A stretch of DNA of 64,000 nucleotides from Chryseobacterium shigense. Its GTDB lineage: Bacteria > Bacteroidota > Bacteroidia > Flavobacteriales > Weeksellaceae. The first letter of the stretch is position 1; every line of letters begins with the position of its first letter. A model generated the notes under the pieces. The model ran no database searches. It was not told the origin of the DNA and was given only the letters and a program-made list of their open reading frames with translations. The translations under genes and the position numbers were made by a program. This document shows, in pieces, positions 4,685 through 18,678 of the stretch. The stretch covers positions 124,001-188,000 of the forward strand of contig NZ_JACHLC010000005.1 of NCBI RefSeq assembly GCF_014207845.1, written 5' to 3'.

Positions 4685-5332
4685 ATGATGCAAACCGGAT
4701 CCCCGTTTTTAGATACTATTTTCCTGCTGCGGAACAGTGGATGCATTACCATTTTTTCAAACCTTCAGGAAATCTCAAAAAAAGAGGAACAGGAAGCCAA
4801 AGATTATTTTGAAACCGAATTCGAAAAAGAAAGGTTAGAATTTTTATCTGCAGATCTTCATTGTCAGAAAGAAACAGCTGTTTGGGCCGCCAAGGTTTTG
4901 TATCACAGTGCCCAGCTCTATCTTATCCGGGAAAACACCGCAAAAGATCTGGATAAACTCATCCCGAGATGGAAAACACCGCCGGATATCTCTTCGGTTT
5001 TGTCTGCAGATATGTCATTGAGATTCCTGCCACAGATTGTATCCCTGCTCAATATAGCTGATCCTCAGGACCCGTTGGTTAAAATTCTTGAAAGTATTCT
5101 TACACAGTTTCATTATTCAGGAATAGGATATCATCTTAATCTGGAAAAAATAAACTGGGAAAAAGAATTAAAAGATAAAACTTACCGGAAATTGTATCTG
5201 GAAAGAATTGTTGAAAAAAAAGCTTATGAACTGGCAGAAATCCCTTACATCAATAAACTGTTGATGGCAGAATTTGGGTTACATAAAGATACCTATTGGA
5301 AAGACTTAAAAATTATTGAACATGGAGATTAA
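4685..5332 (+). CDS. Ternary-system accessory protein (215 aa)
   Basis: First gene of a seven-gene operon. A soluble, helical, charged protein without signal peptide or recognisable catalytic motif. All downstream genes overlap or nearly touch, so the operon is tightly coupled. Two ATG codons (4685 and 4688) are possible starts. By position it is one of the variable small components that accompany MoxR/vWA/beta-propeller systems; I cannot name the family. Confidence 0.7.
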   Translation: MMQTGSPFLDTIFLLRNSGCITIFSNLQEISKKEEQEAKDYFETEFEKERLEFLSADLHCQKETAVWAAKVLYHSAQLYLIRENTAKDLDKLIPRWKTPPDISSVLSADMSLRFLPQIVSLLNIADPQDPLVKILESILTQFHYSGIGYHLNLEKINWEKELKDKTYRKLYLERIVEKKAYELAEIPYINKLLMAEFGLHKDTYWKDLKIIEHGD

Positions 5333-6038
5333 TACTGCGGTTACAATTGGCTTTGTAACGGCTTCCTATTTTTTTATTTTCGGTATTTTGGCGTATTATG
5401 CCCAAAAGGTCATCTTTAAAAAGAAGGTGAATGAGATTCATATGTTTATGTCATTCTCCAAACCACTGTATTCCTATACACTCAGGAATAATATTAAAGT
5501 TAAATTTGGCTATTTACCCCTCTCCAGCTATGTCAACGTTGATTCTGATGAAGATTTTGTGCTGGATAGTCTGGAACTGAAAAAGCATGAAGCAAAAACC
5601 AGGAACAATAATATGGCTTTCCAGGCTATGGTAACAGTTCTTTTTCTGATTATCTTTGTGGCTGCGAATTTCATACTGGGAAATAATACCATTAGCATGT
5701 TCCAGGATTTTGGCTCTAATATTTGGGAGCTTATGTCCGGAAAACAGGGTTTTTCAGATTTTATGACATTTATTCACAGCCAGTATGATGCTTACGGGAA
5801 ATACTTTTTTATAGTGGCGGCTACAATGATGTATTTTATTTTCATTGCAGTACTGATGATCATTACTTCGCTGTCTTCCTATCTGGCAATACTGTTGTCC
5901 ATTATCATTATCGTGGCAGATTTTTTATTGGTTTTTAAATACTTTGAACTACCGCTGACTTTTTATATTGATATTATGCTCTCATTAATTATAAGTGGAT
6001 TCATATATTTTTTATTGCTGAGATTTTTTATTAAATAA
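5322..6038 (+). CDS. Multi-pass membrane protein of the ternary system (238 aa)
   Basis: The ATG at 5322 is preferred over an upstream TTG; it overlaps the previous stop by 11 nt. About five hydrophobic segments are visible: residues 6-28, 100-120, 162-185, 187-205 and 215-235. A soluble stretch of roughly 70 residues separates the first two. No enzyme motif is seen. It ends 6 nt before the ATPase gene and probably anchors the complex in the inner membrane. Confidence 0.75.
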   Translation: MEINTAVTIGFVTASYFFIFGILAYYAQKVIFKKKVNEIHMFMSFSKPLYSYTLRNNIKVKFGYLPLSSYVNVDSDEDFVLDSLELKKHEAKTRNNNMAFQAMVTVLFLIIFVAANFILGNNTISMFQDFGSNIWELMSGKQGFSDFMTFIHSQYDAYGKYFFIVAATMMYFIFIAVLMIITSLSSYLAILLSIIIIVADFLLVFKYFELPLTFYIDIMLSLIISGFIYFLLLRFFIK

Positions 6039-6044
6039 ATACTG

Positions 6045-7178
6045 ATGACTCAAAATATTATAAAACTTAATACCGTTCTCAATTACGTAAAAGATACCTT
6101 CGTAGGTAAAAATGACGTGGTAGACCTGTTGGGAATATGTCTTCTTGCCAAAGAAAATGCATTTCTGTACGGTCCTCCCGGTACGGCAAAATCTGCCATT
6201 GTGAGAACACTGTCAAAAACAGTAAAAGACGGAAAAAACTTTGAATACCTTTTAACCCGCTTCACAGAACCGAATGAAATTTTTGGTCCTTTTGATATCA
6301 GGAAACTAAAAGAAGGAGAACTGCTCACCAATACCGAAGGCATGATGCCGGAAGCCTCGCTGATTTTCCTGGATGAGATTTTTAATGCCAATTCAGCCAT
6401 CCTGAACTCACTTCTGACAGCTTTGAACGAAAAGATCTTTAAAAGAGGAAAAGAAACCAAACATCTCCCGGCTCTCATGTTCGTAGGAGCCAGTAATGTT
6501 CTTCCCGAAGACGAATCACTTAACGCATTATTTGACCGTTTTTTGGTTAGAATAAATGTTGATTACGTAAATCCTGAGCTGCTTCAGCAGGTACTTCTCG
6601 CCGGAAGAAAACTTGAAAACCAGACAGAAACAGATATCCCTGAAATTCAGGCAGACGAGATAAGGGAACTTCAGAACCTGTGTAAAACAGTCGATCTGAA
6701 ACCCATTTACGAAGTCTATCTGAACACCATTATCAGCCTTCGGAATACAGGAATTGCCATCTCCGACCGTAGAGCTGTAAAGCTTCAGAACCTGATCGCG
6801 GCCAGTGCCCTGATCTGTGGAAGAAATGAAGCCATACTTTCCGATCTCTGGGTATTGAAACATATTTGGGATACCGAAGAACAGATCGAGATTCTTGAAG
6901 GAATTATCAACAGGACCATTGAAAAAGACGATAATCCAAAATCTCACCCACAGGCCATGCAGAACAAAACCCCCAACCCGGAGGAGGTGATGAAAGATAT
7001 AAAAATCCTTGTGGAAAAATGGGATAGCGGAATGCTAAGTTTTGAAGAGCAGAATGTCATCAAAGATAAACTGAGATACCTCCAGACACGTTGCGACTGG
7101 ATCAGGAATCCGGAACAGAAACAATACATCCAGCAAGAAATTGAAAGCTTATGGCAGAAAATTCTTCAAAGCGTATAA
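6045..7178 (+). CDS. MoxR/RavA-type AAA+ ATPase
   Basis: Motor of the system, probably acting as a chaperone-like remodeler of its vWA partner. Walker A is G-P-P-G-T-A-K-S (about 44-51), Walker B is L-I-F-L-D-E (about 106-111), sensor 1 is V-G-A-S-N (about 148) and the arginine finger region is F-D-R-F. The F-T-E-P-N-E-I-F-G-P segment is typical of RavA-like MoxR proteins. The C-terminal 100 residues form the helical lid plus a coiled extension. It overlaps the next gene by 28 nt. Confidence 0.88.
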   Translation: MTQNIIKLNTVLNYVKDTFVGKNDVVDLLGICLLAKENAFLYGPPGTAKSAIVRTLSKTVKDGKNFEYLLTRFTEPNEIFGPFDIRKLKEGELLTNTEGMMPEASLIFLDEIFNANSAILNSLLTALNEKIFKRGKETKHLPALMFVGASNVLPEDESLNALFDRFLVRINVDYVNPELLQQVLLAGRKLENQTETDIPEIQADEIRELQNLCKTVDLKPIYEVYLNTIISLRNTGIAISDRRAVKLQNLIAASALICGRNEAILSDLWVLKHIWDTEEQIEILEGIINRTIEKDDNPKSHPQAMQNKTPNPEEVMKDIKILVEKWDSGMLSFEEQNVIKDKLRYLQTRCDWIRNPEQKQYIQQEIESLWQKILQSV

Positions 7179-7894
7179 ACGAATTCTGGGCAGAACTTCC
7201 CCGGGCCGATGAAGATTTTCTGGGAGCCATCCGGGATTGGAAGAATGTGCAGATTGCAGCAGATGATGATACGGTGTGGATGAAAGGCTTCACCGAAGAA
7301 CAGGCTGTATCTGCCGAGATCCAGCAGTTACCCAATTGTATATTGTATGAATTGCGTGAAGGACTTCTGTTTAAAAAAGGAGCGCTGGTGCCAAGCAAAA
7401 AAATGAGAACAGCTTTGCTTTGGTCACCGTTAGATAAAGCATTGAAGCTTACTTTTCCTCCTTCCAACCAGAATTATTTTGGAATAGATGAAAAAGTTGA
7501 AGTAAGATTAAAACCGGGTAATGAAGAACAGTCTGTTGTAGCATTATTAAGCAGAATAGACGAAATTAAAGAAAGTATTCCAGCCCAGCCCAATTTCAGG
7601 CTTGAAAAAATAGAATGGACGGTTATTGATGATAAAGCGTTATTTCTCGGAACACCACTGTTAAGCCTTCCCGGAAAAACCTATTGGATAAGAGACGGAC
7701 ATCTTCTGCCCGCAGGCTTTGATTTTGAATTTAAAAATATGAGCGCTCTTCTGCAGCAGCAACATAATAAAGAGTCTGACAAATGGTTATTATGGAACGA
7801 AGACGGAACCTTTCTTCCCATCAGAAAAGAAGATTTCCGGACACTGTCCGTAAGCTCCTTCCGTCTTACTGAAAAAACAAAAGAATGGATTTAA
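7151..7894 (+). CDS. bpX-type protein of the ternary system (247 aa)
   Basis: A soluble protein with alternating beta-strand patterns and no catalytic motif. It overlaps the ATPase gene by 28 nt and the vWA gene by 10 nt. In MoxR-vWA-beta-propeller ternary systems (Kaur, Burroughs, Iyer and Aravind, as I recall) such proteins are called bpX domains and precede the vWA protein. The assignment rests on context more than on a recognised motif. Confidence 0.65.
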   Translation: MAENSSKRINEFWAELPRADEDFLGAIRDWKNVQIAADDDTVWMKGFTEEQAVSAEIQQLPNCILYELREGLLFKKGALVPSKKMRTALLWSPLDKALKLTFPPSNQNYFGIDEKVEVRLKPGNEEQSVVALLSRIDEIKESIPAQPNFRLEKIEWTVIDDKALFLGTPLLSLPGKTYWIRDGHLLPAGFDFEFKNMSALLQQQHNKESDKWLLWNEDGTFLPIRKEDFRTLSVSSFRLTEKTKEWI

Positions 7895-10266
7895 ACGAAT
7901 ATTTCCAGTCATACGAGAACTACTTTTGGGAATGGGAAACCGATGAGGATATCGCCGGAGATTCCGGGTACCATGATAATAACCTTATCTCGATTCCGGG
8001 GGGTGGGGCTATAGCGTACAGGCCTTATATAATGGAAATCCTGAAAGAGCTTCAGCCGCAGGGATGGCCTCCGTTTGGTGCATTGCTGATGGCTTTATAT
8101 GCCATGCAGGATGGGTATACAGATTTTGCAGGCCCATTAAACCATACCGCGAATTTTCACAGCATCGGAAACTTTGATTTCACCGCAGAAAAAAGCATAG
8201 AGTTCCTCGAAAAACTGAAATCGTTAAATAAAATCTATAAACAGGGACAAAACAGAATTATACTGCTTCAGACCCTGTTTCAGGATTCCCATAACAGAAC
8301 CGCTCCCGGAAAGGCAGAAATGATCCTCACCATTTACTACAAAAGACCTCAGATTTTAGCTTCCAGTGCCGAAAAAAAATATGCGGGACCATCAGCGATC
8401 AACAAAGATCTGAGCACACTTAACCTTTTGAATGAAAAATTTCCCACCGTTCAGTCTATCGTTGATGCCATGCGGGATCACATAGACGAGCCGGAACTGG
8501 ATGATGAGGTAATAGAAGAAGAAACAACAGTAGAAACGGATAAAGATTTTATCCAGCAACTCATCGAAGAGCCCAAAACATTTCAGGTAGGAAGCCTCAT
8601 CAAAAGAATCTGGAGCGGACTGAGAATTCCCATGCGTCATTTATCTCCCGGAGAACAGCCCATCGGAGGAATTTCCGATATGGCAAATAAAGGCGATCTT
8701 CACCGGATGCTTCTTTCCGAATTTGCCAATGATGATGAAGTATTCATGAACAGGATAGCCAATAACGAAGCATTGTATATCCAAAGGGAGATCCCGCCGG
8801 AAGAAAATGTTTTTGAACGCATCATTTTAATTGATACTTCCCTGAGAAATTGGGGAACTCCCAAAGTGTTGGCCTTTGCATCTGCCATTGCCGTCATCAG
8901 GCATCCGAAAGCCCGTTCCGAATGTAAGGTTTTTGCATTGGGACAGGCCGGTATACCGATTTCTCTCGACAAAACGGAAGATGTTATTGAAAATCTTAAC
9001 CAGGTAAGCCCGGTTCTGGAAGTTTCAGAAGCATTAGGTAAGTTTTTTAATGAAGAGAATACCGAAAAAGATCTTGAAGTATTCTTTATCACCCACGAGG
9101 AAAATCTTGCTGATGAAAAAATCAGGAAAGTAATACATGAAAACCGGGACAGACTGAAATTCCTGATTACAACTACTTCAGACGGCGAACTGAATTTCTA
9201 TAAACATCATAAAGGAGCAAGAAAACATATCCAGAAAATAAAACTTCCGCTGCAGGAACTGTGGGCAAATCCGCCACAGCGGAAACAGAAAGTTCATCAG
9301 ATCAATGGTAAGAAAACAGATCTTCCACAGAATTATCCGATCCTGTTTCCGACACCATCCAATAAAATAGCCCAGTTTTTATATGAAGGTGAATTTTATA
9401 TCCTGAGTTCAAAAAAGCAGCTGTTGAAAACTTATCTGTCTGATAACTACTATGACCGGAATTCTTATGACTATTACAAAACTTACCACGGCTGCGAGGC
9501 TCTGATTGAAGATATTTCGGTAAAACCGAAGGGACAGTTTGCTTTGGCTAAAAATAAACAGCAGCATTTTATTTTATGTCAGTATCAGCCGGATAAAAAA
9601 CTGGTTTCAAAGCTCAATCTGAGTACTAAAGAATATTCTGAGCAGAACGTTACCGGGCTGAATATTCCGGGTTCATATCATCTGGTTTATTTCGGAAAGA
9701 ACTTTTACCTGCACCAGCCTATGAATTCTTCCTTGTATAAGATTAATTTGGAAGGAAACATTTCTGTGGAATCCATCTTCAATGATGATGGTGAAATAGA
9801 TAAAAATATTGCAAAGGCAGAAACAGAAGTTACCAAACTGAACCGCAGTGGGATGAAAATAATCAGTAACTTCAACAGGATGGGAATCAATGAAAACAAT
9901 AATCTCGTTATTTCCGGAAATGAGCTCTGCAGACTGTACGAAAACTCGCTGAACCTATATAAAAACAGATTTCCGGTGAAGATCCTTGCCGAGCAGAACA
10001 AAAATAAGTTCACATTTCAGGACGGTAGTGAAATTATTACAGATTCCCGTGGAATGCTTACTTTTAAGAGCAGCAATACCGGTATTCCCACATTTTATAT
10101 TCCTTCCACAGAATATGGGTTTCTGGCATTGGCAACCAACACCGAATATGGCGGATCAGAATATTATCTTCCAAAGCAAACATTGCTCAAAGTAAAAACC
10201 ATGGAAGAAATGTATTCCCAGTATTTAACAGCATTTATTGATCAGATTCTGGATTATGGAACTTAG
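7885..10266 (+). CDS. vWA plus C-terminal beta-propeller-like protein (793 aa)
   Basis: Residues 1-200 form a helical domain with W-P-P-F-G near 70. Residues about 230-440 contain a vWA domain in which R-I-I-L-I-D-T-S-L-R-N stands at the metal site; this keeps D-x-S but not the full DxSxS. Residues about 470-790 show repeated G-x-F/Y-x-L blades consistent with a beta-propeller. This is the vWA/propeller partner of the MoxR ATPase, probably a sensor or effector scaffold. It overlaps both neighbours. Confidence 0.78.
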   Translation: MDLNEYFQSYENYFWEWETDEDIAGDSGYHDNNLISIPGGGAIAYRPYIMEILKELQPQGWPPFGALLMALYAMQDGYTDFAGPLNHTANFHSIGNFDFTAEKSIEFLEKLKSLNKIYKQGQNRIILLQTLFQDSHNRTAPGKAEMILTIYYKRPQILASSAEKKYAGPSAINKDLSTLNLLNEKFPTVQSIVDAMRDHIDEPELDDEVIEEETTVETDKDFIQQLIEEPKTFQVGSLIKRIWSGLRIPMRHLSPGEQPIGGISDMANKGDLHRMLLSEFANDDEVFMNRIANNEALYIQREIPPEENVFERIILIDTSLRNWGTPKVLAFASAIAVIRHPKARSECKVFALGQAGIPISLDKTEDVIENLNQVSPVLEVSEALGKFFNEENTEKDLEVFFITHEENLADEKIRKVIHENRDRLKFLITTTSDGELNFYKHHKGARKHIQKIKLPLQELWANPPQRKQKVHQINGKKTDLPQNYPILFPTPSNKIAQFLYEGEFYILSSKKQLLKTYLSDNYYDRNSYDYYKTYHGCEALIEDISVKPKGQFALAKNKQQHFILCQYQPDKKLVSKLNLSTKEYSEQNVTGLNIPGSYHLVYFGKNFYLHQPMNSSLYKINLEGNISVESIFNDDGEIDKNIAKAETEVTKLNRSGMKIISNFNRMGINENNNLVISGNELCRLYENSLNLYKNRFPVKILAEQNKNKFTFQDGSEIITDSRGMLTFKSSNTGIPTFYIPSTEYGFLALATNTEYGGSEYYLPKQTLLKVKTMEEMYSQYLTAFIDQILDYGT

Positions 10267-11959
10267 AATAAAGCCTTTTCCGAAAAATACCTATTCTAAA
10301 AAAGGGCTTTTAATCAAAGACCCGTCACCTCGTGTATGGCTTTATGAAATGGAAGTTTTGGGGATAGATCTTGCTAAGGTAAAATCCTATGCTATTCCGG
10401 CAGATCAGCCTGATGTTCTGTACGGATGCCTGCTTGTATTTCATGATGAAGCACCTCAGGAAATTGGGAAAAATGCATATTTCCAGTGTGTAGATGACAA
10501 ACTTTTTATCCCTGAAAATACTGTTTTTTATCCCAAGATCAATCCTGAAGACTGGCAGTATGCCGGTGCAAAATTTCTGGTAATGCATCCGGAATTTGGT
10601 TTGGTGAAACTAACGGAAGAGATCAACTGGTTTTCCGTAATACAGGAGCCTGAAATATCAGAAAGAAAGGTAAGAAGACCGTCGAATGGTGTAAAAACTC
10701 CTCAGCATATCGAAAGCTTTACTGTTGAGATGGATGATGAAAAAGTTCTGGCCACCCTTCAGCAGCCTAAAAATGAGGAAGAGTGGATGAAAAACCTGCC
10801 TTTTGATCTCAAAAAAGTAATGGCGGGAAATAAAAAAGAAATTGAAAAATATTTAAAATATATAGAAAAATATCCTGACAGGGCTGTAGATCTTGGTGTA
10901 CCACTGGATATTATGGGAACTTCCCGTGGTGACGGATTTGGAAAGTTTACCTTTGGAGGAAGTTGGCTGAGTACCTTATTTGGAGGAGCGGGAGATGAGA
11001 AAGAAACAACAGGAAGCAGGAATTTCCGTTGGATATTCTGGGCAGCTGTTATAGGAGCTATACTTTTCAGGATCTTTATGCCTTCAGAAGACAAGGCTCA
11101 AAAGGAAGATTTTCTGGTTTCCTCCGGTAAAATTATGAATGGAACCGATAAAGCGCGGGCAGATATGATTGCCTATCAGTCCGGAGTAACGGATATTGAT
11201 ATGAAAATCGATTCTATTTATGGAAAAGAGAGGAAAAAACTTTCCGGTGAGTATGCTGCTGCGGGCGCCGCGATGTCAAAAGATAAAAACGAAAGGGAAA
11301 AATATAAAAAGACGGGTGGAAGGAATCTTGGAGAAGTAGGAAATGATATTGAAAAGCTCAATAACAGAGAACAGAACAGCAGAGATTTCCTTAAAATCAT
11401 TTATTCAAAAAGGATAACGAAGCATCTTGTTCAGCAGGAAGAAAAAATGAAACGGCGTATATCAGATTCCCTGAAGAAATATACGAAAGGAAAACCTGTT
11501 AACGGAGAGGTTGTGAAATTTATATTAAAGAAAAAACAGGTATTAATGGCCGATTCGCTGGGCCGGCTTTACGGGACTGTTGATATGATGAATCTTCCTC
11601 CGGCTGCCATTAAAGATTCAAAAACAGGAACCCTTGAATCGGGTGAAAATAGTAGGAAGGAAAAGACAAAGGTTTCAGATATTCTGTATCTTGTGATCTT
11701 TATGTTCGGAGCGGTGGGAATTTATTCTTTCATTGTCAAACGAAAATCTCCAAATTTAGGTGGTGATAGCGTACCGTTGTGGGTGAAAATTATTTTATCT
11801 GCGGTTCTTGTTTCCATGCTGGTATATCTTTTCTATCCGCTCATCAGTATGTTCGGATACAACTGGTTTGTATGGATCCTTGTATTTTTTGTGATTCTTC
11901 TTCTTTACCGCCTGTTCAGCGAAGACAAAACCATTTTAAATACCGGAGACGATGAATAA
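10256..11959 (+). CDS. Membrane-anchored bpX-type protein (567 aa)
   Basis: The ATG at 10256 (M-E-L-R-I-K) is preferred over a TTG six codons upstream; it overlaps the vWA gene by 11 nt. Residues 1-170 form a beta-rich N-terminal domain. One membrane segment lies near 260 (F-R-W-I-F-W-A-A). A long charged helical region runs to about 460. Three further membrane segments lie in the last 100 residues. It probably transmits state between the cytosolic ATPase/vWA and the membrane. Function unknown. Confidence 0.7.
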   Translation: MELRIKPFPKNTYSKKGLLIKDPSPRVWLYEMEVLGIDLAKVKSYAIPADQPDVLYGCLLVFHDEAPQEIGKNAYFQCVDDKLFIPENTVFYPKINPEDWQYAGAKFLVMHPEFGLVKLTEEINWFSVIQEPEISERKVRRPSNGVKTPQHIESFTVEMDDEKVLATLQQPKNEEEWMKNLPFDLKKVMAGNKKEIEKYLKYIEKYPDRAVDLGVPLDIMGTSRGDGFGKFTFGGSWLSTLFGGAGDEKETTGSRNFRWIFWAAVIGAILFRIFMPSEDKAQKEDFLVSSGKIMNGTDKARADMIAYQSGVTDIDMKIDSIYGKERKKLSGEYAAAGAAMSKDKNEREKYKKTGGRNLGEVGNDIEKLNNREQNSRDFLKIIYSKRITKHLVQQEEKMKRRISDSLKKYTKGKPVNGEVVKFILKKKQVLMADSLGRLYGTVDMMNLPPAAIKDSKTGTLESGENSRKEKTKVSDILYLVIFMFGAVGIYSFIVKRKSPNLGGDSVPLWVKIILSAVLVSMLVYLFYPLISMFGYNWFVWILVFFVILLLYRLFSEDKTILNTGDDE

Positions 11960-12971
11960 GCAGAAGTTTTTAGACAAATTCCTGACCGCATTTATGATTC
12001 TTGCTGTGTTTAAGATCATCGGGATTGCAGCACAGCTCTTTCACGAAAGCTTTTGGAGCGTGGTGGGTACACTGGTGATCTTCCTTGTCGTTGCTTTTAT
12101 CATTATGATTGTAATTACCGCTTTAAAAGATAAAGAGCGGAACAGCAATAATTCAGGAAAAAGAGGCTCCGGCGGAGGGAATTTTTATCTGGAAACCTCT
12201 TTATTCGACAGAATCCGAAATAAGTACGAAGAACTTGCCGAAAAATATATTGCTGAAAATGAGTATAAAAAAGCAGCTAAAGTATATATGAATCTTCTCC
12301 AGGACAATTTCCGGGGTGCAAAAACACTGGAAAACGGAGGTTTCTATAACGAAGCAGCAGCAGTTTATCTGAAAAAACTGAACAATAAGTCCGAAGCAGC
12401 CTCCTGCTATGAAAAAGCAAAGCAGTATAAAAAAGCAATCGATCTGTATAAAGAAATGCAGCAGAAAGAAAAAGTAGGGGATCTTTACAAAGAACTTAAT
12501 GATATTAAAAATGCCCACAGCTACTATCAAATGGTTGCCGATGATTATACCGCAAACAGCCAGATGGTAAAAGCATCATTGATATACAGTAAAAAAATGG
12601 AAAAGCCTGAAGAAGCCCAAAAAGTTCTGCTGAAAGGATGGAACGAAGATAAGGATGCATTCAACTGCCTGAATAATTATTTTGCCAATATTTTTGATGT
12701 TAAAAAACTGGGAACAGAAATTCAGAATCTTTACCTACAAACACCTTCCTACAAAAAGACCATTTACCTTGATGCGATGAAGCATGAGTTTAAAAAAGAT
12801 CCGAAATTACAGTCCGTAACCCGCAATATTGCTTATGAAATCATTGCTGAAAAAGTGGCTACCCGCTCTGAGATTATCAATGAATTGAAATACTTTAACC
12901 CTGATGACAATGTAATTTTGAAAGATATTTCAAGATTTAAAACGGGAAGGAATAAGATGTTGAGGAATTGA
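11952..12971 (+). CDS. TPR-repeat membrane protein (339 aa), last gene of the ternary operon
   Basis: Two N-terminal membrane segments (about 10-30 and 33-57) are followed by a Gly/Ser linker and helix-turn-helix repeats. These fit the TPR signature, for example Y-x-K-A-A-K-V-Y-M-N-L and Y-N-E-A-A-A-V-Y-L-K, through about residue 230. It overlaps the previous gene by 8 nt. Most likely a protein-protein docking subunit. Confidence 0.75.
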   Translation: MNKQKFLDKFLTAFMILAVFKIIGIAAQLFHESFWSVVGTLVIFLVVAFIIMIVITALKDKERNSNNSGKRGSGGGNFYLETSLFDRIRNKYEELAEKYIAENEYKKAAKVYMNLLQDNFRGAKTLENGGFYNEAAAVYLKKLNNKSEAASCYEKAKQYKKAIDLYKEMQQKEKVGDLYKELNDIKNAHSYYQMVADDYTANSQMVKASLIYSKKMEKPEEAQKVLLKGWNEDKDAFNCLNNYFANIFDVKKLGTEIQNLYLQTPSYKKTIYLDAMKHEFKKDPKLQSVTRNIAYEIIAEKVATRSEIINELKYFNPDDNVILKDISRFKTGRNKMLRN

Positions 12972-14441: not shown

Positions 14442-14453
14442 AATTCAATTTTG

Positions 14454-14523
14454 TGGGGGAGAAGGGTTCGAACCTCCATTTTCACGTTAGCAGTGTAGTG
14501 TTTTTCCAGTTAAACTATCCCCC
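14454..14523 (-). tRNA. tRNA-like gene, anticodon ambiguous (GCU or CUA)
   Basis: The acceptor GGGGGA/TCCCCC pairs. The D arm is GTTTAACTGGAAAAAC, and the T arm is GGTTCGAACC with a strained stem. The anticodon arm folds in two ways. Loop CTGCTAA gives GCU (Ser) but with a weak stem. Stem CAC/GTG with loop TGCTAAC gives CUA but lacks U33. The D arm matches the tRNA-like genes at 2643 and 2757. Confidence 0.6.
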
Positions 14524-14572
14524 TTTCTTGTGAACAAAAGTATTATTTTCCTCTCTCAAAAACAATTTTTCA

Positions 14573-14580
14573 TATATTTG
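14573..14580 (+). promoter_or_regulatory. -7 box upstream of leader ORF 1
   Basis: TATATTTG fits TAnnTTTG and lies 13 nt before the leader ATG. I see no clear -33 TTG at normal spacing. Confidence 0.45.
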
Positions 14581-14593
14581 CGCCAGAAAAATT

Positions 14594-14722
14594 ATGACAC
14601 TACAAAGAGCACATATCAATGTAAATCTATGCGATAGCCCTTCAATAAAAGGATTATTCGGATATGAATGGATGATATGGAATGAGGCGAAATGTGCTTG
14701 CTTTGAAAATTATTTACAATAA
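14594..14722 (+). CDS. Leader ORF 1 containing all 20 amino acids (42 aa)
   Basis: The ORF begins M-T-L-Q-R-A-H-I-N-V and ends E-N-Y-L-Q. Its 42 residues include every standard amino acid, with rare ones over-represented: three Cys, two Trp, two Met and two Gln. A terminator hairpin begins 32 nt after the stop. TGAGGCG inside codons 30-32 (14683-14689) can pair with the hairpin's 5' arm (14756-14762). This is the layout of a transcription-attenuation leader peptide. No similarity to a known leader is recognised. Confidence 0.7.
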   Translation: MTLQRAHINVNLCDSPSIKGLFGYEWMIWNEAKCACFENYLQ

Positions 14723-14753
14723 ACCCGTAAAAATTTAAACAAAATACTGCAGA

Positions 14754-14781
14754 AACGCCTCGAATGATCGGGGCGTTTTTT
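14754..14781 (+). terminator. Attenuator terminator after leader ORF 1
   Basis: A 10-bp stem AACGCCTCGA/TCGGGGCGTT with loop ATGA is followed by a T tract. Its 5' arm is complementary (7 bp, one GU) to 14683-14689 within the leader ORF, so terminator and antiterminator are mutually exclusive. Confidence 0.8.
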
Positions 14782-15031
14782 GTGTTTTAGGCCATAAATT
14801 ATTTAGAATGAAAAAAAATAACCATAAAATTGAAAATTTTTTAATTAACAATGAACATTTAATACAATAAATAAGAGTGATAAGTAACCCGATGAGAGAC
14901 AGTCATTTAGGTATTTAAGACATCTGCAGGATATTGCGGACAGAAATTTCCTATGCTAAAAATTAGATTTAAATATCTGATTATCAATATTTTAAATTAA
15001 AAATAAATTTGTGGGTTAAAAAAAATCATAT
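14782..15031. other. AT-rich spacer between the two attenuators
   Basis: No ORF, tRNA or convincing hairpin is visible. The stretch is AT-rich and leads into the promoter of leader ORF 2. Confidence 0.5.
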
Positions 15032-15039
15032 TTACTTTG
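15009..15039 (+). promoter_or_regulatory. Promoter of leader ORF 2 and the tRNA array
   Basis: TTG (15009-15011) is followed after about 20 nt by TTACTTTG (15032-15039), a near-consensus Bacteroidota promoter. The predicted message starts about 60 nt before the leader ATG. Confidence 0.6.
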
Positions 15040-15103
15040 CAACCGAAAATTGAAAGCAACAGGTTTTCAGGATTCAAAAACTTTTAAATAAACAAAAAAT
15101 ATA

Positions 15104-15229
15104 ATGAAACAATTACATAACATATCTAATCTGGATTCAAGACTATACGGACAGGGGCCGAAAGGATATACATGTATGCCTGATAGTGAATTTATAGATA
15201 AAAGGTGCTTATATACGTGGGTCAGCTAA
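15104..15229 (+). CDS. Leader ORF 2 containing 19 of 20 amino acids (41 aa)
   Basis: The ORF begins M-K-Q-L-H-N-I-S-N-L and ends L-Y-T-W-V-S; only Ala is missing. Its codons include a match for all 16 isoacceptors in the downstream tRNA array: CAT, AAA, AGA/AGG, GAT, CCG/CCT, ATG, AAC/AAT, TGT/TGC, TAC/TAT, ACA/ACG, GAA, CTA/CTG, TTA, TTT, CAA/CAG and TGG. A strand at 15203-15215 can pair over 13 bp (one bulge) with 15248-15261, which includes the terminator's 5' arm. The ATG follows an A-rich leader usual for this phylum. Best read as an attenuation leader. Confidence 0.75.
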   Translation: MKQLHNISNLDSRLYGQGPKGYTCMPDSEFIDKRCLYTWVS

Positions 15230-15283
15230 TGATCTCTTACGTCTGAATATATACAGCACCTCCCGAAAAGAGGTGCTTTTTTT
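15203..15283 (+). promoter_or_regulatory. Antiterminator/terminator switch in front of the tRNA array
   Basis: Antiterminator: AGGTGCT plus TATATA (15203-15215) pairs with TATATA plus AGCACCT (15248-15261), with one bulged C at 15254. Terminator: AGCACCTC/GAGGTGCT (15255-15262 with 15270-15277). The two share 15255-15261 and cannot coexist. A ribosome that completes the leader would cover the antiterminator strand and favour termination. Stalling further upstream would favour read-through into the tRNAs. Confidence 0.75.
15255..15283 (+). terminator. Attenuator terminator after leader ORF 2
   Basis: An 8-bp GC-rich stem with loop CCGAAAA and a run of seven T (15277-15283). The first tRNA gene starts 3 nt later, so array transcription from this promoter needs read-through. 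Confidence 0.85.
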
Positions 15284-15285
15284 AT

Positions 15286-15357
15286 GGTTTCTTTAGCTTA
15301 TTTGGTAAAGCGCCGGTCTGTGGAACCGGAGAACAGGGTTCGATCCCCGAAGATACC
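15286..15357 (+). tRNA. tRNA-His (GUG)
   Basis: The anticodon stem CCGGT/ACCGG encloses loop CTGTGGA. The acceptor has one T-T mismatch, and the terminal G-C pair fits the extra G of tRNA-His. The T stem is only partly paired. First member of the array. Confidence 0.8.
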
Positions 15358-15368
15358 CAAAGTAATAT

Positions 15369-15445
15369 AATCTCATAGCTCAAATGGTTAGAGCACCGGT
15401 CTTTTAAACCGGGGGTTGAAAGTTCAAATCTTTCTGGGATTACCA
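15369..15445 (+). tRNA. tRNA-Lys (UUU)
   Basis: Acceptor AATCTCA/TGGGATT, D arm GCTC/GAGC, anticodon loop CTTTTAA, T stem GAAAG/CTTTC, discriminator A and an encoded CCA. Confidence 0.88.
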
Positions 15446-15447
15446 AT

Positions 15448-15521
15448 GGCTTCGTAACTCAATTGGATAGAGTAACGGTTTTCTAAACCGTAGGTTACAG
15501 GTTCGAATCCTGTCGGAGTCA
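15448..15521 (+). tRNA. tRNA-Arg (UCU)
   Basis: Acceptor GGCTTCG/CGGAGTC with two GU pairs; anticodon stem ACGGT/ACCGT around TTTCTAA; T stem ACAGG/CCTGT; discriminator A. No CCA is encoded. Confidence 0.88.
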
Positions 15522-15528
15522 CAAAAAA

Positions 15529-15599
15529 GGTCTATTGAGGTAACGGTAACCTGCCCGACTGTCTCTTGGGTACTGCGAGTTCGATTCTCGCATAGACCG
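15529..15599 (+). tRNA. tRNA-Asp (GUC)
   Basis: Acceptor GGTCTAT/ATAGACC is perfect. The anticodon loop is CTGTCTC, with pyrimidine 37 instead of the usual purine. T stem GCGAG/CTCGC. Discriminator G as expected for Asp. Confidence 0.85.
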
Positions 15600-15602
15600 C
15601 AA

Positions 15603-15659
15603 AGATTCACGGAAAATTTCAGCTCGGCTGTCTCCCGGAAAGAAATATAAAGTGAATCT
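15603..15659 (+). ncRNA. Armless tRNA-Asp-like element
   Basis: An 8-bp outer stem AGATTCAC/GTGAATCT is separated by only about 41 nt. The middle holds a short stem TCGG/CCGG around CTGTCTC, the same seven-base loop as the neighbouring tRNA-Asp. D and T arms are absent. It looks like an acceptor plus anticodon-arm mimic. It could be a decayed tRNA or a minimal decoy. Confidence 0.5.
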
Positions 15660-15665
15660 GCAAAA

Positions 15666-15737
15666 CTGGAAAGATAACGGTGGTTGTTTACCCGCCTTGG
15701 ACGCGGGAGGTCATAGGTTCGAATCCTATTTTCCAGA
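15666..15737 (+). tRNA. tRNA-Pro (UGG)
   Basis: Acceptor CTGGAAA/TTTCCAG is perfect. Anticodon stem CCCGC/GCGGG around CTTGGAC. T stem ATAGG/CCTAT. The D stem is weak. Confidence 0.85.
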
Positions 15738-15742
15738 CTGAA

Positions 15743-15819
15743 AAATGAATGGTGAATTTTGTTTCACAAGTGAATGTTAAAAATTGACAGGCAACGCAAA
15801 TTGACAATCACCATTCATT
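15743..15819. repeat. GTGAAT-type inverted-repeat spacer
   Basis: AAATGAATGGTGA (about 15743-15755) is the reverse complement of TCACCATTCATTT (about 15807-15819). The interior carries more GTGAAT/TTGACA words. Related spacers occur near 17658, 49220 and 61255, so this is a dispersed repeat family. Confidence 0.55.
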
Positions 15820-15824
15820 TAAAA

Positions 15825-15898
15825 GATTTCGTAGCTCAATAGGTTAGAGTATCGGTTTCATAAGCCGGAGGTTGAAGGTTCGAGTCCTTCCGAAATTA
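15825..15898 (+). tRNA. tRNA-Met or tRNA-Ile2 (CAU)
   Basis: Acceptor GATTTCG/CGAAATT with one GU; anticodon loop TTCATAA; T stem GAAGG/CCTTC; discriminator A. If the wobble C is lysidinylated it would read ATA, a codon used twice in each leader ORF. Confidence 0.85.
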
Positions 15899-15904
15899 CA
15901 AAAC

Positions 15905-15976
15905 GATTTTGTAGCTCAACGGTAGAGCACCGGTCTGTTAAACCGGAAGTTGAAAGTTCGAATCTTTCCGGAATCG
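15905..15976 (+). tRNA. tRNA-Asn (GUU)
   Basis: Acceptor GATTTTG/CGGAATC with GU pairs; D arm GCTC/GAGC; anticodon stem CCGGT/ACCGG around CTGTTAA; T stem GAAAG/CTTTC; discriminator G. Confidence 0.88.
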
Positions 15977-16014
15977 CAGATAGCTAAATGTTAATTGTTT
16001 CGAAAAAAAGAGAA

Positions 16015-16085
16015 AAGAAAAGGTTTGTCAGGAGCAGAAGATCTTTACGCCAAAAACACGATAAAAAACAGACAGGCTTTTTCTT
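16015..16085 (+). ncRNA. Unknown hairpin RNA element, copy 1
   Basis: A 15-bp stem ends GTTTGTC/GACAGGC and encloses a loop with AGCAGAAGATCTT. Stem length and loop core recur in copies 2-4. GU and compensatory changes in the stem imply selection on RNA structure. Confidence 0.6.
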
Positions 16086-16145
16086 GACTCTGAATTATTG
16101 AGATTGAAAAGAATAAATAATAAACATAATATAAATTTTTAGATG

Positions 16146-16210
16146 AAAATAAAGTTTGTCGGGCGCAGAAGTTCTTATATCAAACAAAAAATTAAGACAG
16201 ACTTTATTTT
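16146..16210 (+). ncRNA. Unknown hairpin RNA element, copy 2
   Basis: A 15-bp continuous stem (AAAATAAAGTTTGTC with GACAGACTTTATTTT) encloses GGGCGCAGAAGTTCTTATA. It lies between tRNA-Asn and tRNA-Cys. Confidence 0.6.
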
Positions 16211-16287
16211 TTAATGAAAATCTAAATAAAAGAATAATCAGTAAAATGAAAATTACTCATTGCTCATTACTGATTACTTATAAAAAC

Positions 16288-16369
16288 GATGGTTCGCCAA
16301 AGTGGAAGAGTCGGGGCGGTCTGCAAAACCGTTGTGAAAACTTAGTGGGTTTGAATCCCATAACCATCT
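16288..16369 (+). tRNA. tRNA-Cys (GCA) with long variable region
   Basis: Acceptor GATGGTT/AACCATC is perfect. Anticodon loop is CTGCAAA. Discriminator T is the Cys identity base. The D arm and a roughly 12-nt variable region resemble the tRNA-Tyr that follows, so a Tyr/Leu-like body carries a Cys anticodon. Confidence 0.82.
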
Positions 16370-16407
16370 CAAATAACTAAAATGAGATTAGTTCCGGAGA
16401 AAAAGTA

Positions 16408-16463
16408 AAAGTTTGTCGAGCGTAGAAGTTCTTATATCAAACTAAAAATTACAGACAGGCTTT
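16408..16463 (+). ncRNA. Unknown hairpin RNA element, copy 3
   Basis: A 10-bp stem AAAGTTTGTC/GACAGGCTTT encloses GAGCGTAGAAGTTCTTATA. It lies between tRNA-Cys and tRNA-Tyr. Confidence 0.6.
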
Positions 16464-16563
16464 GTTTTTCTTCACAAAAAGAATTTAGATGGTAAAAATT
16501 AGAAAATGAAAATAAAGAATGAAAAAATTACCCATTACTAATTACTTATTACCCATCATATCT

Positions 16564-16650
16564 GGAAGTACGCCGAAGTTGGAGAGTCGGGGCAGACTGT
16601 AAATCTGTTGCTTTATTGCTGAGTAGGTTCGAATCCTGCTACTTCCACCA
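16564..16650 (+). tRNA. tRNA-Tyr (GUA)
   Basis: Acceptor GGAAGTA/TACTTCC, anticodon loop CTGTAAA, long class II variable arm (about 16610-16622), T stem GTAGG/CCTGC, discriminator A and encoded CCA. Confidence 0.88.
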
Positions 16651-16652
16651 AA

Positions 16653-16726
16653 ACCGCTGATAATGTAACGGCAGCATGCAGGAAATGTACTCTTGTTGTT
16701 CAGGTTCGATTCCTGGTCAGTCGGTT
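16653..16726 (+). tRNA. tRNA-Thr-like (UGU), degenerate
   Basis: The acceptor ACCGCTGA pairs with TCAGTCGGT only with a bulged T. Anticodon stem CAGGA/TCTTG encloses AATGTAC, which has A33 where U is nearly universal. The T arm is intact. It may be non-functional in translation. Confidence 0.68.
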
Positions 16727-16731
16727 CAAAA

Positions 16732-16803
16732 ACTCCATTAGCATAGAGGTGAGTGCATCCGGCTTTCTACCGGGAGACGAGGGTTCGGTTCCCTTATGGA
16801 GTA
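16732..16803 (+). tRNA. tRNA-Glu (UUC)
   Basis: Acceptor ACTCCAT/ATGGAGT is perfect. Anticodon stem TCCGG/CCGGG encloses CTTTCTA, with pyrimidine 37. T stem GAGGG/CCCTT. Discriminator A. Confidence 0.82.
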
Positions 16804-16900
16804 CAAATGTGAATGGTCAAAATCAGTTATACATAATGAATACCATGAAAGTTCAGATTTGAGTAATAAAATTGATCGATCATTCACAGAAAAACAGGAA

Positions 16901-16980
16901 GGAGAAAAGTTTGTCAAGCGCAGAAGATCTTACAAGCACTAACAAACAGGCATAGTTTTTAATATAGACAGGCTTTCTCT
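16901..16980 (+). ncRNA. Unknown hairpin RNA element, copy 4
   Basis: The stem GGAGAAAAGTTTGTC pairs with GACAGGCTTTCTCT with one bulge. The loop has the shared core GCGCAGAAGATCTTA plus an extra 15-20 nt. Confidence 0.58.
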
Positions 16981-17089
16981 GACCTTAATGATAAGTAATA
17001 AGTAATGAGCAATAAGTAATTTGTGAATAATGAATGAATAATTCTTTGGATTACTCATTACCAATTATTCATTACTCATAAAATAACCT

Positions 17090-17163
17090 GCGGGAATGGT
17101 GGAAATGGCAGACACACTTGATTTAGGCTCAAGGTTTTGGGGGTTCGAGGCCCTCTTCCCGTA
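17090..17163 (+). tRNA. tRNA-Leu (UAG), shortened variable arm
   Basis: Acceptor GCGGGAA/TTCCCGT; anticodon stem CTTGA/TCAAG around TTTAGGC; T stem GGGGG/CCCTC partly paired. The variable region is only about 6-7 nt although Leu tRNAs are normally class II. Confidence 0.82.
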
Positions 17164-17171
17164 CAAAAATT

Positions 17172-17245
17172 GCCTCTCTATTCCAATTGGCAGAGAAAAC
17201 GGATTTAAACCCCGTAAAGTCCCGGTTCAAATCCGGGGAGAGGTA
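17172..17245 (+). tRNA. tRNA-Leu (UAA), class I-like
   Basis: Acceptor GCCTCTC/GAGAGGT; anticodon loop TTTAAAC with one mismatch in the stem; T stem CCCGG/CCGGG. The variable loop is about 5 nt, again short for Leu, and the D stem is weak. Confidence 0.78.
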
Positions 17246-17338
17246 CAAAAAGTATAGGTAATAAGTAATTGCTGCGATGAATAAATTGTAAATGTAATGA
17301 ATGTATGGAATTACTTATTACTCAATACTTATAAATCC

Positions 17339-17411
17339 GGAAGAGTGGTGTAGCAGGTCTGCACGTTAGTCTGAAAAACTAAAGGTACAGGTTCGATTCC
17401 TGTCTGTTCCA
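17339..17411 (+). tRNA. tRNA-Phe (GAA)
   Basis: Acceptor GGAAGAG/CTGTTCC with one G-G mismatch; anticodon stem TTAGT/ACTAA around CTGAAAA; T stem ACAGG/CCTGT; discriminator A. Confidence 0.82.
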
Positions 17412-17501
17412 CAAAATATGTGTAATGAGTAATGTACAATAAGTAATCAATGACATACAAAAATATATTACGAATTACCTATTACTCATTACTTATGAAA
17501 C

Positions 17502-17574
17502 TGATTCATAGTGTAATTGGTCAGCACACAAGACTTTGACTCTTGCTGTTCAGGTTCGAGTCCTGGTGAATCAA
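17502..17574 (+). tRNA. tRNA-Gln (UUG)
   Basis: Acceptor TGATTCA/TGAATCA is perfect; anticodon stem CAAGA/TCTTG around CTTTGAC; T arm TCAGG/CCTGG; discriminator A. Confidence 0.87.
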
Positions 17575-17581
17575 CAAATTT

Positions 17582-17652
17582 ACTCTGATAGTGTAATGGC
17601 AGCATCTCAGTCTCCAAAACTGATGGTATTGGTTCGGGTCCGGTTCAGAGTG
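17582..17652 (+). tRNA. tRNA-Trp (CCA)
   Basis: Acceptor ACTCTGA/TCAGAGT is perfect; anticodon stem TCAGT/ACTGA around CTCCAAA; T stem ATTGG/CCGGT with GU pairs; discriminator G as usual for Trp. Last member of the array, about 130 nt before the RNA-repair operon. Confidence 0.87.
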
Positions 17653-17781
17653 CAAAAAAGTGAATGGCTAATAGTGAATTTTACTTCATAAGTGAATTTA
17701 AATTGATAAGTGAAACGAACTGACAATTCACGATTGACAAATTAAAATACAAACAAAACAAATTTAAAACATGTAGAAAAA

Positions 17782-18267
17782 ATGGAAACGCAACAAGAAA
17801 TATGGCAGAACATGAATGGAAATTTTTTCCGGAAACCTATCACGCAGCTGGTAGAAGAAGCCATTATCCGCGAACAGGCTAACGGCCACCGTCTTAAAGT
17901 ATGTGTGGGTTCAGACTCTCACGTTTATGGAGACGCAATTAATTACGCAACGGCAGTAGTATTTGTTCGTGAAGGAAAAGGAGCGTTTACCTTTATCAGA
18001 AAAGAAAGAGAAATACAGAAAATCAGTATCAAAGAACGAATGCTGAACGAGGTAAACAGATCCGTAGAAATTGCTTACGCTATCTGTGCCGTTCTGGATG
18101 CTTATGGTGTGGAAATGGAGGTACACGCAGACATTAATACCGACCCCGATTTTAAATCAAATACCGCATTGAAAGATGCTATGGGCTATATTCTGGGAAT
18201 GGGATATGTGTTTAAGGCAAAACCTCACGCATTTGCAAGCTCCAATTGTGCTGATATGATGGTTTAA
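17782..18267 (+). CDS. RNase H-fold nuclease, YkuK/DUF458-like
   Basis: The 161 residues show an RNase H-like core. V-C-V-G-S-D-S-H (about 40) carries the first acidic residue, a Glu-containing helix lies near 85-95, and V-H-A-D-I-N-T-D (about 115-122) carries further metal ligands. It probably cuts RNA. First gene of the repair operon, directly after the tRNA array with no terminator between them, so read-through could co-express them. Confidence 0.78.
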   Translation: METQQEIWQNMNGNFFRKPITQLVEEAIIREQANGHRLKVCVGSDSHVYGDAINYATAVVFVREGKGAFTFIRKEREIQKISIKERMLNEVNRSVEIAYAICAVLDAYGVEMEVHADINTDPDFKSNTALKDAMGYILGMGYVFKAKPHAFASSNCADMMV

Positions 18268-18306: not shown

Positions 18307-18678
18307 ATGGAACTCACAAAAAGATTATTGTTTCTCGATGATATAAGATATCCAATTGAAGCATATCATTATACCAGACAGGATATTTTCCTCAGAAAAG
18401 ACTGGCATATTGTCCGCAATTACGAACAGTTTGTGAACAGGATTCTTGAAAAAGGACTTCCGGAAATGATCTCTTTTGATCATGACCTGGCGGATGAACA
18501 TTATCTGGAGCCGGATACCCTGAAATTTGTAGAGAAAACAGGCTACGATTGTGCCAAATGGCTGGTAGAATATTGCATGGATAACTATTTGAATCTGCCA
18601 AAATTCTACTGCCATTCTATGAATCCGGTAGGAAAGGAAAATATTGAAAGCCTTTTAAAAAACTTTAAAAAATTGTAA
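18307..18678 (+). CDS. Cyclic-phosphate processing receiver-like protein (cREC)
   Basis: The 123 residues have L-F-L-D-D-I-R (about 8), I-S-F-D-H-D-L (about 56) and T-G-Y-D-C-A-K-W-L (about 79). These are the hallmarks of the receiver-derived family that Burroughs and Aravind linked to processing of cyclic phosphates in RNA repair. The RNA ligase two genes downstream fits, since 2',3'-cyclic ends must be opened before ligation. It overlaps the next gene by 1 nt. Confidence 0.8.
   Translation: MELTKRLLFLDDIRYPIEAYHYTRQDIFLRKDWHIVRNYEQFVNRILEKGLPEMISFDHDLADEHYLEPDTLKFVEKTGYDCAKWLVEYCMDNYLNLPKFYCHSMNPVGKENIESLLKNFKKL

Follow-up and report, generated by a model that had tools for sequence, protein, structure and literature searches.

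Transcription attenuators of the trp/his/leu type read leader peptides dominated by a single amino acid or a small number of them, and leaders of the trp/his type respond to uncharged tRNA. Two other loci matter for comparison: whiB7 of actinobacteria, a transcription factor gene behind an upstream open reading frame (uORF), and the Salmonella operon rsr-yrlBA-rtcBA, in which rsr is a Ro-type gene. Here we analyze a 64,000-nucleotide stretch of Chryseobacterium shigense DNA (assembly GCF_014207845.1, contig NZ_JACHLC010000005.1, forward-strand positions 124,001 to 188,000; "the window" below), in which two short open reading frames, ORF1 and ORF2, precede an array of extra tRNA genes followed by RNA-repair genes. 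We regard it as probable that ORF1 and ORF2 are the leader peptides of tandem ribosome-mediated transcription attenuators, predicted from their sequence surroundings and likely sensing a shortage of any tRNA.

Like trp/his/leu attenuators, each window leader combines a short ORF, a terminator, a competing antiterminator that uses the ORF end, and a stop codon between the pairing strands. Unlike them, the window leaders sample nearly all amino acids, stand in tandem, and precede tRNA and RNA-repair genes; in our model, moreover, a complete lack of translation would mean ON. The toiL uORF of the Escherichia coli topAI-yjhQ locus is similar in that one uORF responds to stalls at different positions, but it acts on a ribosome-binding site and on Rho-dependent termination and was tested with drugs; the parts of the source consulted describe no all-residue make-up (PMC12121999). 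The whiB7 uORF, whose induction follows exposure to several antibiotics or amino-acid starvation (PMC12121999), precedes another kind of gene, whiB7 itself.

The nearest relatives in function lie elsewhere, leader-peptide attenuation itself being known. The RtcR-controlled Salmonella operon is an RNA-repair operon that answers damaged tRNA through a CARF-domain activator binding tRNA fragments (PMC7790460), whereas in the window the sensing of missing functional tRNA would fall to a leader acting in cis, and the ligase is of the T4 Rnl2 type. The Anabaena trn operon is a long extra tRNA array, normally silent and switched on under translational stress, governed by the ribbon-helix-helix repressor TrcR instead of leader peptides (PMC10272220). 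Phage tRNAs with altered anticodon loops are extra tRNAs proposed to escape tRNA-targeting defenses (PMC10264068); the window array, in contrast, is chromosomal and apparently attenuated. We found no description of leaders kept near-complete in amino acids in the literature searched, which did not include most subscription journals or a 2016 RNA-repair survey.

The leader region comprises the following features.

14573..14580, + strand: promoter −7-like element of ORF1, Flavobacteria type, TATATTTG, directly upstream of ORF1
14594..14722, + strand: leader ORF1, 42 codons, 20 of 20 amino acids
14684..14689, + strand: predicted antiterminator 1, 5′ strand GAGGCG, ORF1 codons 31–32
14751..14780, + strand: intrinsic terminator 1, with the antiterminator partner CGCCTC at 14756–14761
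14882..14970, + strand: central conserved RNA element of two hairpins, loop GAGACAG at 14896–14902
15031..15040, + strand: promoter −7-like element of ORF2, TTTACTTTGC, kept in the inspected alignment rows
15104..15229, + strand: leader ORF2, 41 codons, 19 amino acids, no Ala
15203..15215, + strand: predicted antiterminator 2, 5′ strand AGGTGCTTATATA, from ORF2 codon 34
15248..15261, + strand: predicted antiterminator 2, 3′ strand TATATACAGCACCT, overlapping the 5′ arm of terminator 2
15255..15277, + strand: intrinsic terminator 2, directly 5′ of the tRNA array
15286..17653, + strand: tRNA array, with 15 ARAGORN-called tRNAs and a Thr-like remnant

We call TATATTTG promoter-like on the basis of TAnnTTTG, which we take to be the Flavobacteria −7 consensus; TATCTTTGC/TATATTTGC stands at this site in the 14 inspected rows of the 35-row alignment.

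Amino acid and codon coverage within Chryseobacterium

An earlier note on this DNA had credited ORF1 with all 20 amino acids in 42 codons and ORF2 with 19 in 41, Ala being absent, and had found in both a codon for each of 16 isoacceptors assigned to the array, including CTA and TTA for Leu and AGA for Arg. These readings held. The count of 16 tRNAs held for the 15 that ARAGORN calls; the sixteenth, a Thr-like stretch at about 16655–16725, is uncalled in the window, and a Thr tRNA is called between Tyr and Glu in the arrays of several relatives.

Coverage was compared with random ORFs drawn from the composition of the window proteins and with real protein stretches of equal length. Random 42-codon ORFs hold a mean of 16.5 distinct amino acids, giving P = 0.0046 for the 20 of 42 in ORF1 and P = 0.044 for at least 19 of 41 in ORF2; among real 42-residue stretches, 8 of 1904 (0.42%) contain all 20. 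Scored over 24 codon boxes, with Leu, Ile, Arg, and Ser split, ORF1 covers 23 (P = 0.0018) and ORF2 covers 21 (P = 0.057). The part of each frame 5′ of the predicted antiterminator strand holds all 20 amino acids in the first 30 codons of ORF1 (P = 0.0003) and 17 in about 33 codons of ORF2 (P = 0.18). On its own, the window ORF2 is weakly unusual; its strength comes from conservation.

For conservation within the genus we used 35 genomes, all matching the RNaseH-like gene downstream of the array (in two pieces in genome G027), which with the window gave 36 loci. Upstream sequence was present in 35 of them; G021, with too short a contig, is out of all leader counts. Both ORFs are present and open in 35/35. 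ORF1 holds 20 distinct amino acids in 23 loci, 19 in 11, and 18 in 1 (mean 19.6), and ORF2 holds 20 in 14, 19 in 12, 18 in 8, and 17 in 1; together they cover all 20 in 34/35. With 17–20 distinct residues in every copy, neither ORF has a run or excess of one or a few amino acids at any of the 35 loci, and neither is a classical single-amino-acid attenuator leader.

Codon coverage is similarly broad. ORF1 and ORF2 average 22.9 and 22.2 of the 24 boxes, against a null of 18.2 (sd 1.6), and all 24 are filled by eight ORF1s and three ORF2s and by none of the 2655 real 42-codon windows. Among Leu codons, the rare CTA accounts for 52 of 146 in ORF1, compared with 2.6% in window genes. Upstream of the antiterminator strand, ORF1 averages 19.3 distinct amino acids in 30 codons (null 14.6) and ORF2 17.9 in about 33 (null 15.2). 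The earlier note had reasoned that orthologous loci should carry the ORFs, that they should keep the composition while the sequence drifts, and that the residue content should exceed chance; these expectations were borne out, the first at the array loci of the genus and the last against equal-length stretches of real proteins.

The short ORFs are under coding constraint: besides being open throughout, they carry indels that are mostly codon multiples, and their ratio of nonsynonymous to synonymous polymorphism (pN/pS) is below 1 (0.61 for ORF1, 0.41 for ORF2). Shuffling the alignment columns lowers the residue count, the observed mean being reached in 0/2000 shuffles for ORF1 and 7/2000 for ORF2, a result consistent, with relatedness uncontrolled, with loss of a residue at one site being offset elsewhere. 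Genomes G014 and G033, for instance, have Trp at AKWAC instead of YEWM. Positions holding a unique residue were not significantly more conserved than those holding a repeated one in the same-genus alignment (ORF1 trend, p = 0.066; none for ORF2).

A second set of 80 named records (79 Chryseobacterium, 1 Weeksellaceae; strains partly overlapping the first set) gave recognizable ORF1 in 76 and ORF2 in 77. Locus L108 has an unrecognized ORF1, and the upstream sequence is limited to 60 bases in L118, 1569 in L169, and 2518 in L174. The two leaders jointly hold all 20 amino acids in 73/73 named loci where one script recognized both, and CTA occurs in 75 of the 76 recognized ORF1s. Further same-genus loci searched by patterns or by rule had both leaders in 12/16 and 8/10, and one leader in the remainder. 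At five loci (L032, L033, L044, L060, L065) TAG replaces the Trp codon TGG and ORF2 stops three codons early, with Thr as its last residue; the antiterminator sequence is retained there.

Terminators and predicted antiterminators

An intrinsic terminator follows each ORF, its 5′ arm complementary to the last codons of that ORF and the stop codon lying between the two strands. The stems of both terminators align in 35/35 same-genus loci; under a strict stem-plus-T-tract rule, terminator 1 passes in 27/35 and terminator 2 in 34/35. Terminator 2 covaries, with 7 cells changed on both sides, all at one pair, a level reached in 0/500 shuffles.

Structure prediction gives an alternative antiterminator that overlaps both the ORF end and the terminator arm; for leader 2, AGGTGCTTATATA in the last ORF2 codons is predicted to pair with TATATACAGCACCT. 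We cut the RNA off before the 3′ arm of the terminator and used shuffled ORF ends as the control. Pairing between the terminator 5′ arm and the ORF then reached a mean probability of 0.80 for leader 2 (>0.5 in 35/35; shuffled 0.38) and 0.59 for leader 1 (>0.5 in 32/34; shuffled 0.36), with leader 1 of G026 left out because the pairing script found no terminator there.

This anatomy suggests how the switch would work. A ribosome that decodes every codon to the stop would break the antiterminator, so that the terminator forms (OFF). A ribosome held at any codon 5′ of the antiterminator strand would leave that strand free, the antiterminator would form (ON), and a failure to initiate translation would have the same effect. 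In the ON state, RNA polymerase would read into the tRNA array and the RNaseH-like, cyclic-phosphate processing (cREC), and RNA-ligase genes. The two leaders together would form an AND gate over nearly all tRNAs, because both must be translated without a stall. From sequence we infer these events, namely that the two promoter-like elements drive transcription and that translation, stalling, and read-through take place, as well as tRNA damage or depletion as their natural signal.

A rule-based detector requiring 30–48 codons, at least 18 distinct residues, and a terminator 10–90 nt after the stop, run over both strands of the window, returns exactly ORF1 and ORF2. When 6 or more complementary bases are also required, the detector gives zero hits in 1,585,367 antisense bases (1.59 Mb). 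In the 80 named loci, its sense-strand hits other than leaders are two out-of-frame ORFs overlapping leader 1 (L141, L179). Looser filters (15–16 residues) add a few more hits, such as L198 at −6247, L296, L298, and L300. A T-box riboswitch or another known RNA family was ruled out as an explanation, since Rfam at gathering scores matches only tRNA in the window.

Leaders beyond the genus

Related genera keep the arrangement. In genus g28 (L071, L180–L182) both leaders are present, with 19–20 and 17–18 amino acids. In genus g38 (L072), leader 1 holds all 20 amino acids at 36% identity to ORF1, and leader 2 holds 19 in 39 codons; each has a terminator, and only two tRNAs follow, together with the ligase and an RNaseH-like gene that is 80% identical. 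Family f3 has the gene in 3/299 genomes and in one more through an order search. All four loci (L183, L184, L198, L199) show the order leader, terminator, central element, leader, array of 14–17 tRNAs, gene. Their leaders of 37–43 codons hold 19 amino acids and three frames of 69–70 codons hold 19–20, two of which are unremarkable for their length (P = 0.39 and 0.45). In L183 and L184, leader 2 was identified from its position rather than by rule; leader 1 of L198 and L199 was started at the first ATG past the promoter-like element, the frames being open further upstream.

Sampling at the level of the class read 30 of 31 places (G882 left out) in another order, families f17–f19, and found leaders at two, L224 and L225, both in f18. 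Leaders are not a general attribute of RNaseH-like genes: 28 of 32 loci from f3 and f17–f19 have neither a rule-found leader nor an array (L208 has one tRNA, L222 three scattered ones), and G048 and G054, at 34–35% identity, have no tRNAs. A phage origin was likewise rejected, as 14 viral RNaseH-like loci carry neither tRNAs nor leaders.

Only one RNaseH-like paralogue in f18 is leader-linked, and a search of f18 with this paralogue was read upstream at 20 of the 23 places of ranks 3–25. Leader 1 was found by rule in 19/20, with 17–20 distinct amino acids and a length of 30 codons in 14/19 (null mean 14.6); one 30-codon example, MNRKHLNIEAQYGWSPIGDFTVCGACYAEE, holds every amino acid. Leader 2, found in 17/20, has 50–53 codons in 13/17 and all 20 amino acids in 11/17 (null mean 17.3). 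Leader pairs cover all 20 in 16/17. These counts exclude L301 from leader 1 (a 65-codon frame by rule) and L290 from leader 2 (leader 1 returned twice), and L289 is without leader 2. The f18 leader 1 can form up to 9 perfect predicted antiterminator pairs, for example TTGCGGGGC with GCCCCGCAA. tRNAs are called at 17/20 loci. Among 21 leaders tested from outside the genus, the predicted pairing probability exceeds 0.5 in 17.

Profiles built from the Chryseobacterium leaders recognize leader 1 of L072 (32 bits) and no f18 leader above the best shuffled control. Shared ancestry of the f18 and Chryseobacterium leaders was rejected on that score as a demonstrated relationship, and the faint identity taken up below keeps it possible. 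A His-Ile (or His-Thr) pair occurs in the first nine residues of many leaders that are otherwise hardly alignable (ORF1, ORF2, L072, L183, L184, L198, L199, L224, L282–L301); in f18 this motif is near the start of 13/19 leader 1s and only 2/17 leader 2s.

Taking the lineages together, we lean toward the broader reading that these are full-alphabet attenuators: tandem leaders that would be selected to hold one or more codons for practically all tRNAs. The cell would thereby check its entire decoding repertoire in one or two brief passes, and failure anywhere would release nuclease-evading tRNAs and RNA repair. The class would span at least two orders of the class, with leaders beyond the recognition of Chryseobacterium profiles keeping composition and anatomy.

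Putative output genes and competing explanations

The array and the genes behind it bear on what such a switch would release. Further features on the 3′ side are these.

15624..15638, + strand: free hairpin in a spacer; its loop, CTGTCTC, is the complement of loop GAGACAG in the central element
17782..18267, + strand: RNaseH_like protein, PF04308 (presumably the former DUF458)
18307..18678, + strand: cREC cyclic-phosphate processing receiver domain, PF20274
19247..20263, + strand: T4 Rnl2-type RNA ligase, PF09414 and PF18043
28376..29893, + strand: Ro/TROVE-domain protein by Pfam scan, a putative member of the same transcription unit

Other genes 3′ of the array encode DinB-like, metallo-beta-lactamase fold, metallophosphatase, and exonuclease proteins (Pfam; 10 downstream proteins scanned). 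No RtcR (CARF plus sigma-54 activator) was found among 20 window proteins scanned with Pfam, the rest of the window and genome lying outside that search. RNA-ligase matches occur in 65/246 family genomes, a few of them weak. The ligase appears not to be an obligate part, because L044 (G008) and L045 (G009), which keep the leaders, the array, and the RNaseH-like gene, gave no ligase match.

Each of the 15 called array tRNAs duplicates a canonical isoacceptor at 55–73% identity with changed loops, and the stretches read outside the array contain 31 tRNA anticodons, including every isoacceptor of those 15. Several differ beside the anticodon (Asp CTGTCTC versus CTGTCAC; Pro CTTGGAC versus TTTGGGA). 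The output would consist of divergent extra tRNAs with altered anticodon surroundings together with RNA-repair genes, a set that fits a response to cleaved or depleted tRNAs.

The earlier note had proposed general sensors that release spare tRNAs. Its general-sensor part is sustained by coverage that persists down to 36% identity between genera and into another order, and by the terminator and predicted antiterminator at each ORF. The spare-tRNA output proved too narrow: RNaseH-like, cREC, ligase, and other genes follow, and tRNAs are absent from the stretch read at L282, L286, and L290 and number two at L072. Ala, Gly, and Val count against it as well. No array tRNA for any of these was called in the 35 Chryseobacterium loci, and the leaders of most loci contain these residues; the sensor would be broader than the array, because the leaders sample amino acids uncalled among its tRNAs.

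Several observations weigh against monitoring of all tRNAs by conserved attenuators. At 14 named loci (L100–L113) leader 1 fails the strict terminator rule, aligned members of the same clade showing a broken T tract, TTTCTTG. The antiterminator hardly covaries within the genus (92.3% of cells paired versus 91.9% with shuffled partners; 50/500 as high), so covariation was set aside as proof of it; within the genus the predicted structure is conserved rather than covarying, and its support comes from conservation and from recurrence elsewhere. Outside the genus, only 7/21 leaders pair better than 95 or more of 100 shuffled ORF ends, and pairing fails for leader 2 of L183 (0.08), L184 (0.19), and L198 (0.22) and for leader 1 of L180 (0.37). 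Coverage also has gaps. Trp is absent from 9/35 ORF2s, 3/35 ORF1s, and both leaders of L183 and L184; in the window ORF2, Trp and Val occur only 3′ of the antiterminator strand, leaving it possibly blind to both, because a ribosome stalled there would cover that strand. Single-base insertions or deletions alter the reading of the final codons in three genomes (ORF1 of G008 and G029, ORF2 of G034) and leave the frames open. The column-shuffle test has no phylogeny control, and the f3 and f18 leaders were found with filters of at least 14–16 distinct residues, which inflates their single-locus P values. Finally, mean identity of the f18 leader 1 to ORF1 is 0.28 versus 0.22 for shuffled sequences, and the lineages may not be independent, because this faint excess, with the His-Ile/Thr motif near the start, makes common descent possible.

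Other explanations would account for parts of this evidence. Tandem leaders with such coverage might be general amino-acid starvation attenuators, for which any uncharged tRNA, not cleavage, is the natural signal. Leaders of the trp/his type do answer to uncharged tRNA, and uncharged and cleaved tRNA are inseparable by sequence; the genes behind the leaders, however, encode tRNAs, an RNA ligase, and a domain for cyclic-phosphate processing rather than biosynthetic functions, and spare tRNA genes are no cure for starvation, which makes this account unlikely. We judge still less probable a toiL-like sensor of ribosome-targeting drugs or slowed ribosomes, for which the choice of residues in the peptide would be accidental and the signal would be something other than tRNA. 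The predicted switch would indeed go ON with any stall or failed initiation, one toiL uORF answers several drug classes (PMC12121999), and translation-targeting antibiotics induce the Anabaena trn array (PMC10272220). Such a sensor leaves unexplained why leaders that have diverged past recognition retain near-complete coverage of residues and codon boxes, the rare CTA among them. The scan of 10 downstream proteins turned up RNA-repair domains and none of a drug-resistance family. A signal of cleaved tRNA, of uncharged tRNA, or of ribosomes stalled by a drug would give the same picture in sequence; residue coverage and the RNA-repair neighbors favor, without proving, tRNA monitoring.

That the ORFs are functional microproteins, rich in residues by chance, agrees with pN/pS below 1 and with conserved N-terminal residues. 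It is very improbable given that leader 1 of L072 has fallen to 36% identity against 80% for the RNaseH-like neighbor, and that f18 leaders, unrecognized by the Chryseobacterium profiles above shuffled controls, have similar coverage and terminator coupling. Pure coincidence, small ORFs that happen to precede terminators, would suit the window ORF2 taken alone (P only 0.04–0.06); preservation of the ORFs in 35/35 loci, the absence of hits in 1.59 Mb of antisense sequence, the two hits in the window, and the f18 coverage contradict it to the point where we give it almost no credence.

Some further features of the locus stand apart from the interpretation of tandem tRNA-sensing leaders. The GAGACAG loop of the central element (14896–14902) is the exact complement of CTGTCTC at 15628–15634, a motif also present in the array tRNA-Asp (15529–15600); CTGTCTC lies in the loop of stem-loops in 42/43 arrays, as the array tRNA-Asp anticodon loop, a free spacer hairpin, or both. 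A kissing pair is possible and is seen as complementary motifs in families f1 and f3. We rejected it as a general part of the system, since in f18 GAGACAG occurs in 1/20 loci and CTGTCTC in 6/20, not as a pair. By eye, four repeats in the array spacers share the form AAAGTTTGTC...GCAGAAGNTCTTA...GACAGRCTTT and could fold into long hairpins; they lie at about 16020–16085, 16150–16210, 16402–16465, and 16900–16982. Just upstream of ORF1, at 14453–14524 on the − strand, lies an odd tRNA-like gene called as tRNA-Pyl with anticodon CTA; near the same site and on the same strand, Ile- or Ser-type tRNAs are called in three relatives (G005, G006, G015). A MoxR/bpX0-bpX1-bpX4 (MoxR-vWA-beta-propeller) system occupies 4685–12971, upstream of the leader-array locus, and two more unusual tRNAs, one without a clear anticodon, lie at 2642–2827 between genes upstream of that system.

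The analysis yields a search rule that produced no false positive on antisense sequence: a short ORF, a near-complete residue set, and a terminator whose pairing partner lies inside the ORF. Textbook leader-peptide attenuation measures one amino acid; a leader measuring all tRNAs would, if true, be a new kind of translation-integrity alarm, and deleting one codon type from the leader would make one tRNA invisible to it. It would also explain, at the level of sequence, why a bacterial chromosome carries an extra tRNA array, and it would link tRNA-cleaving defense and toxin systems to a repair-and-replace operon that answers them.

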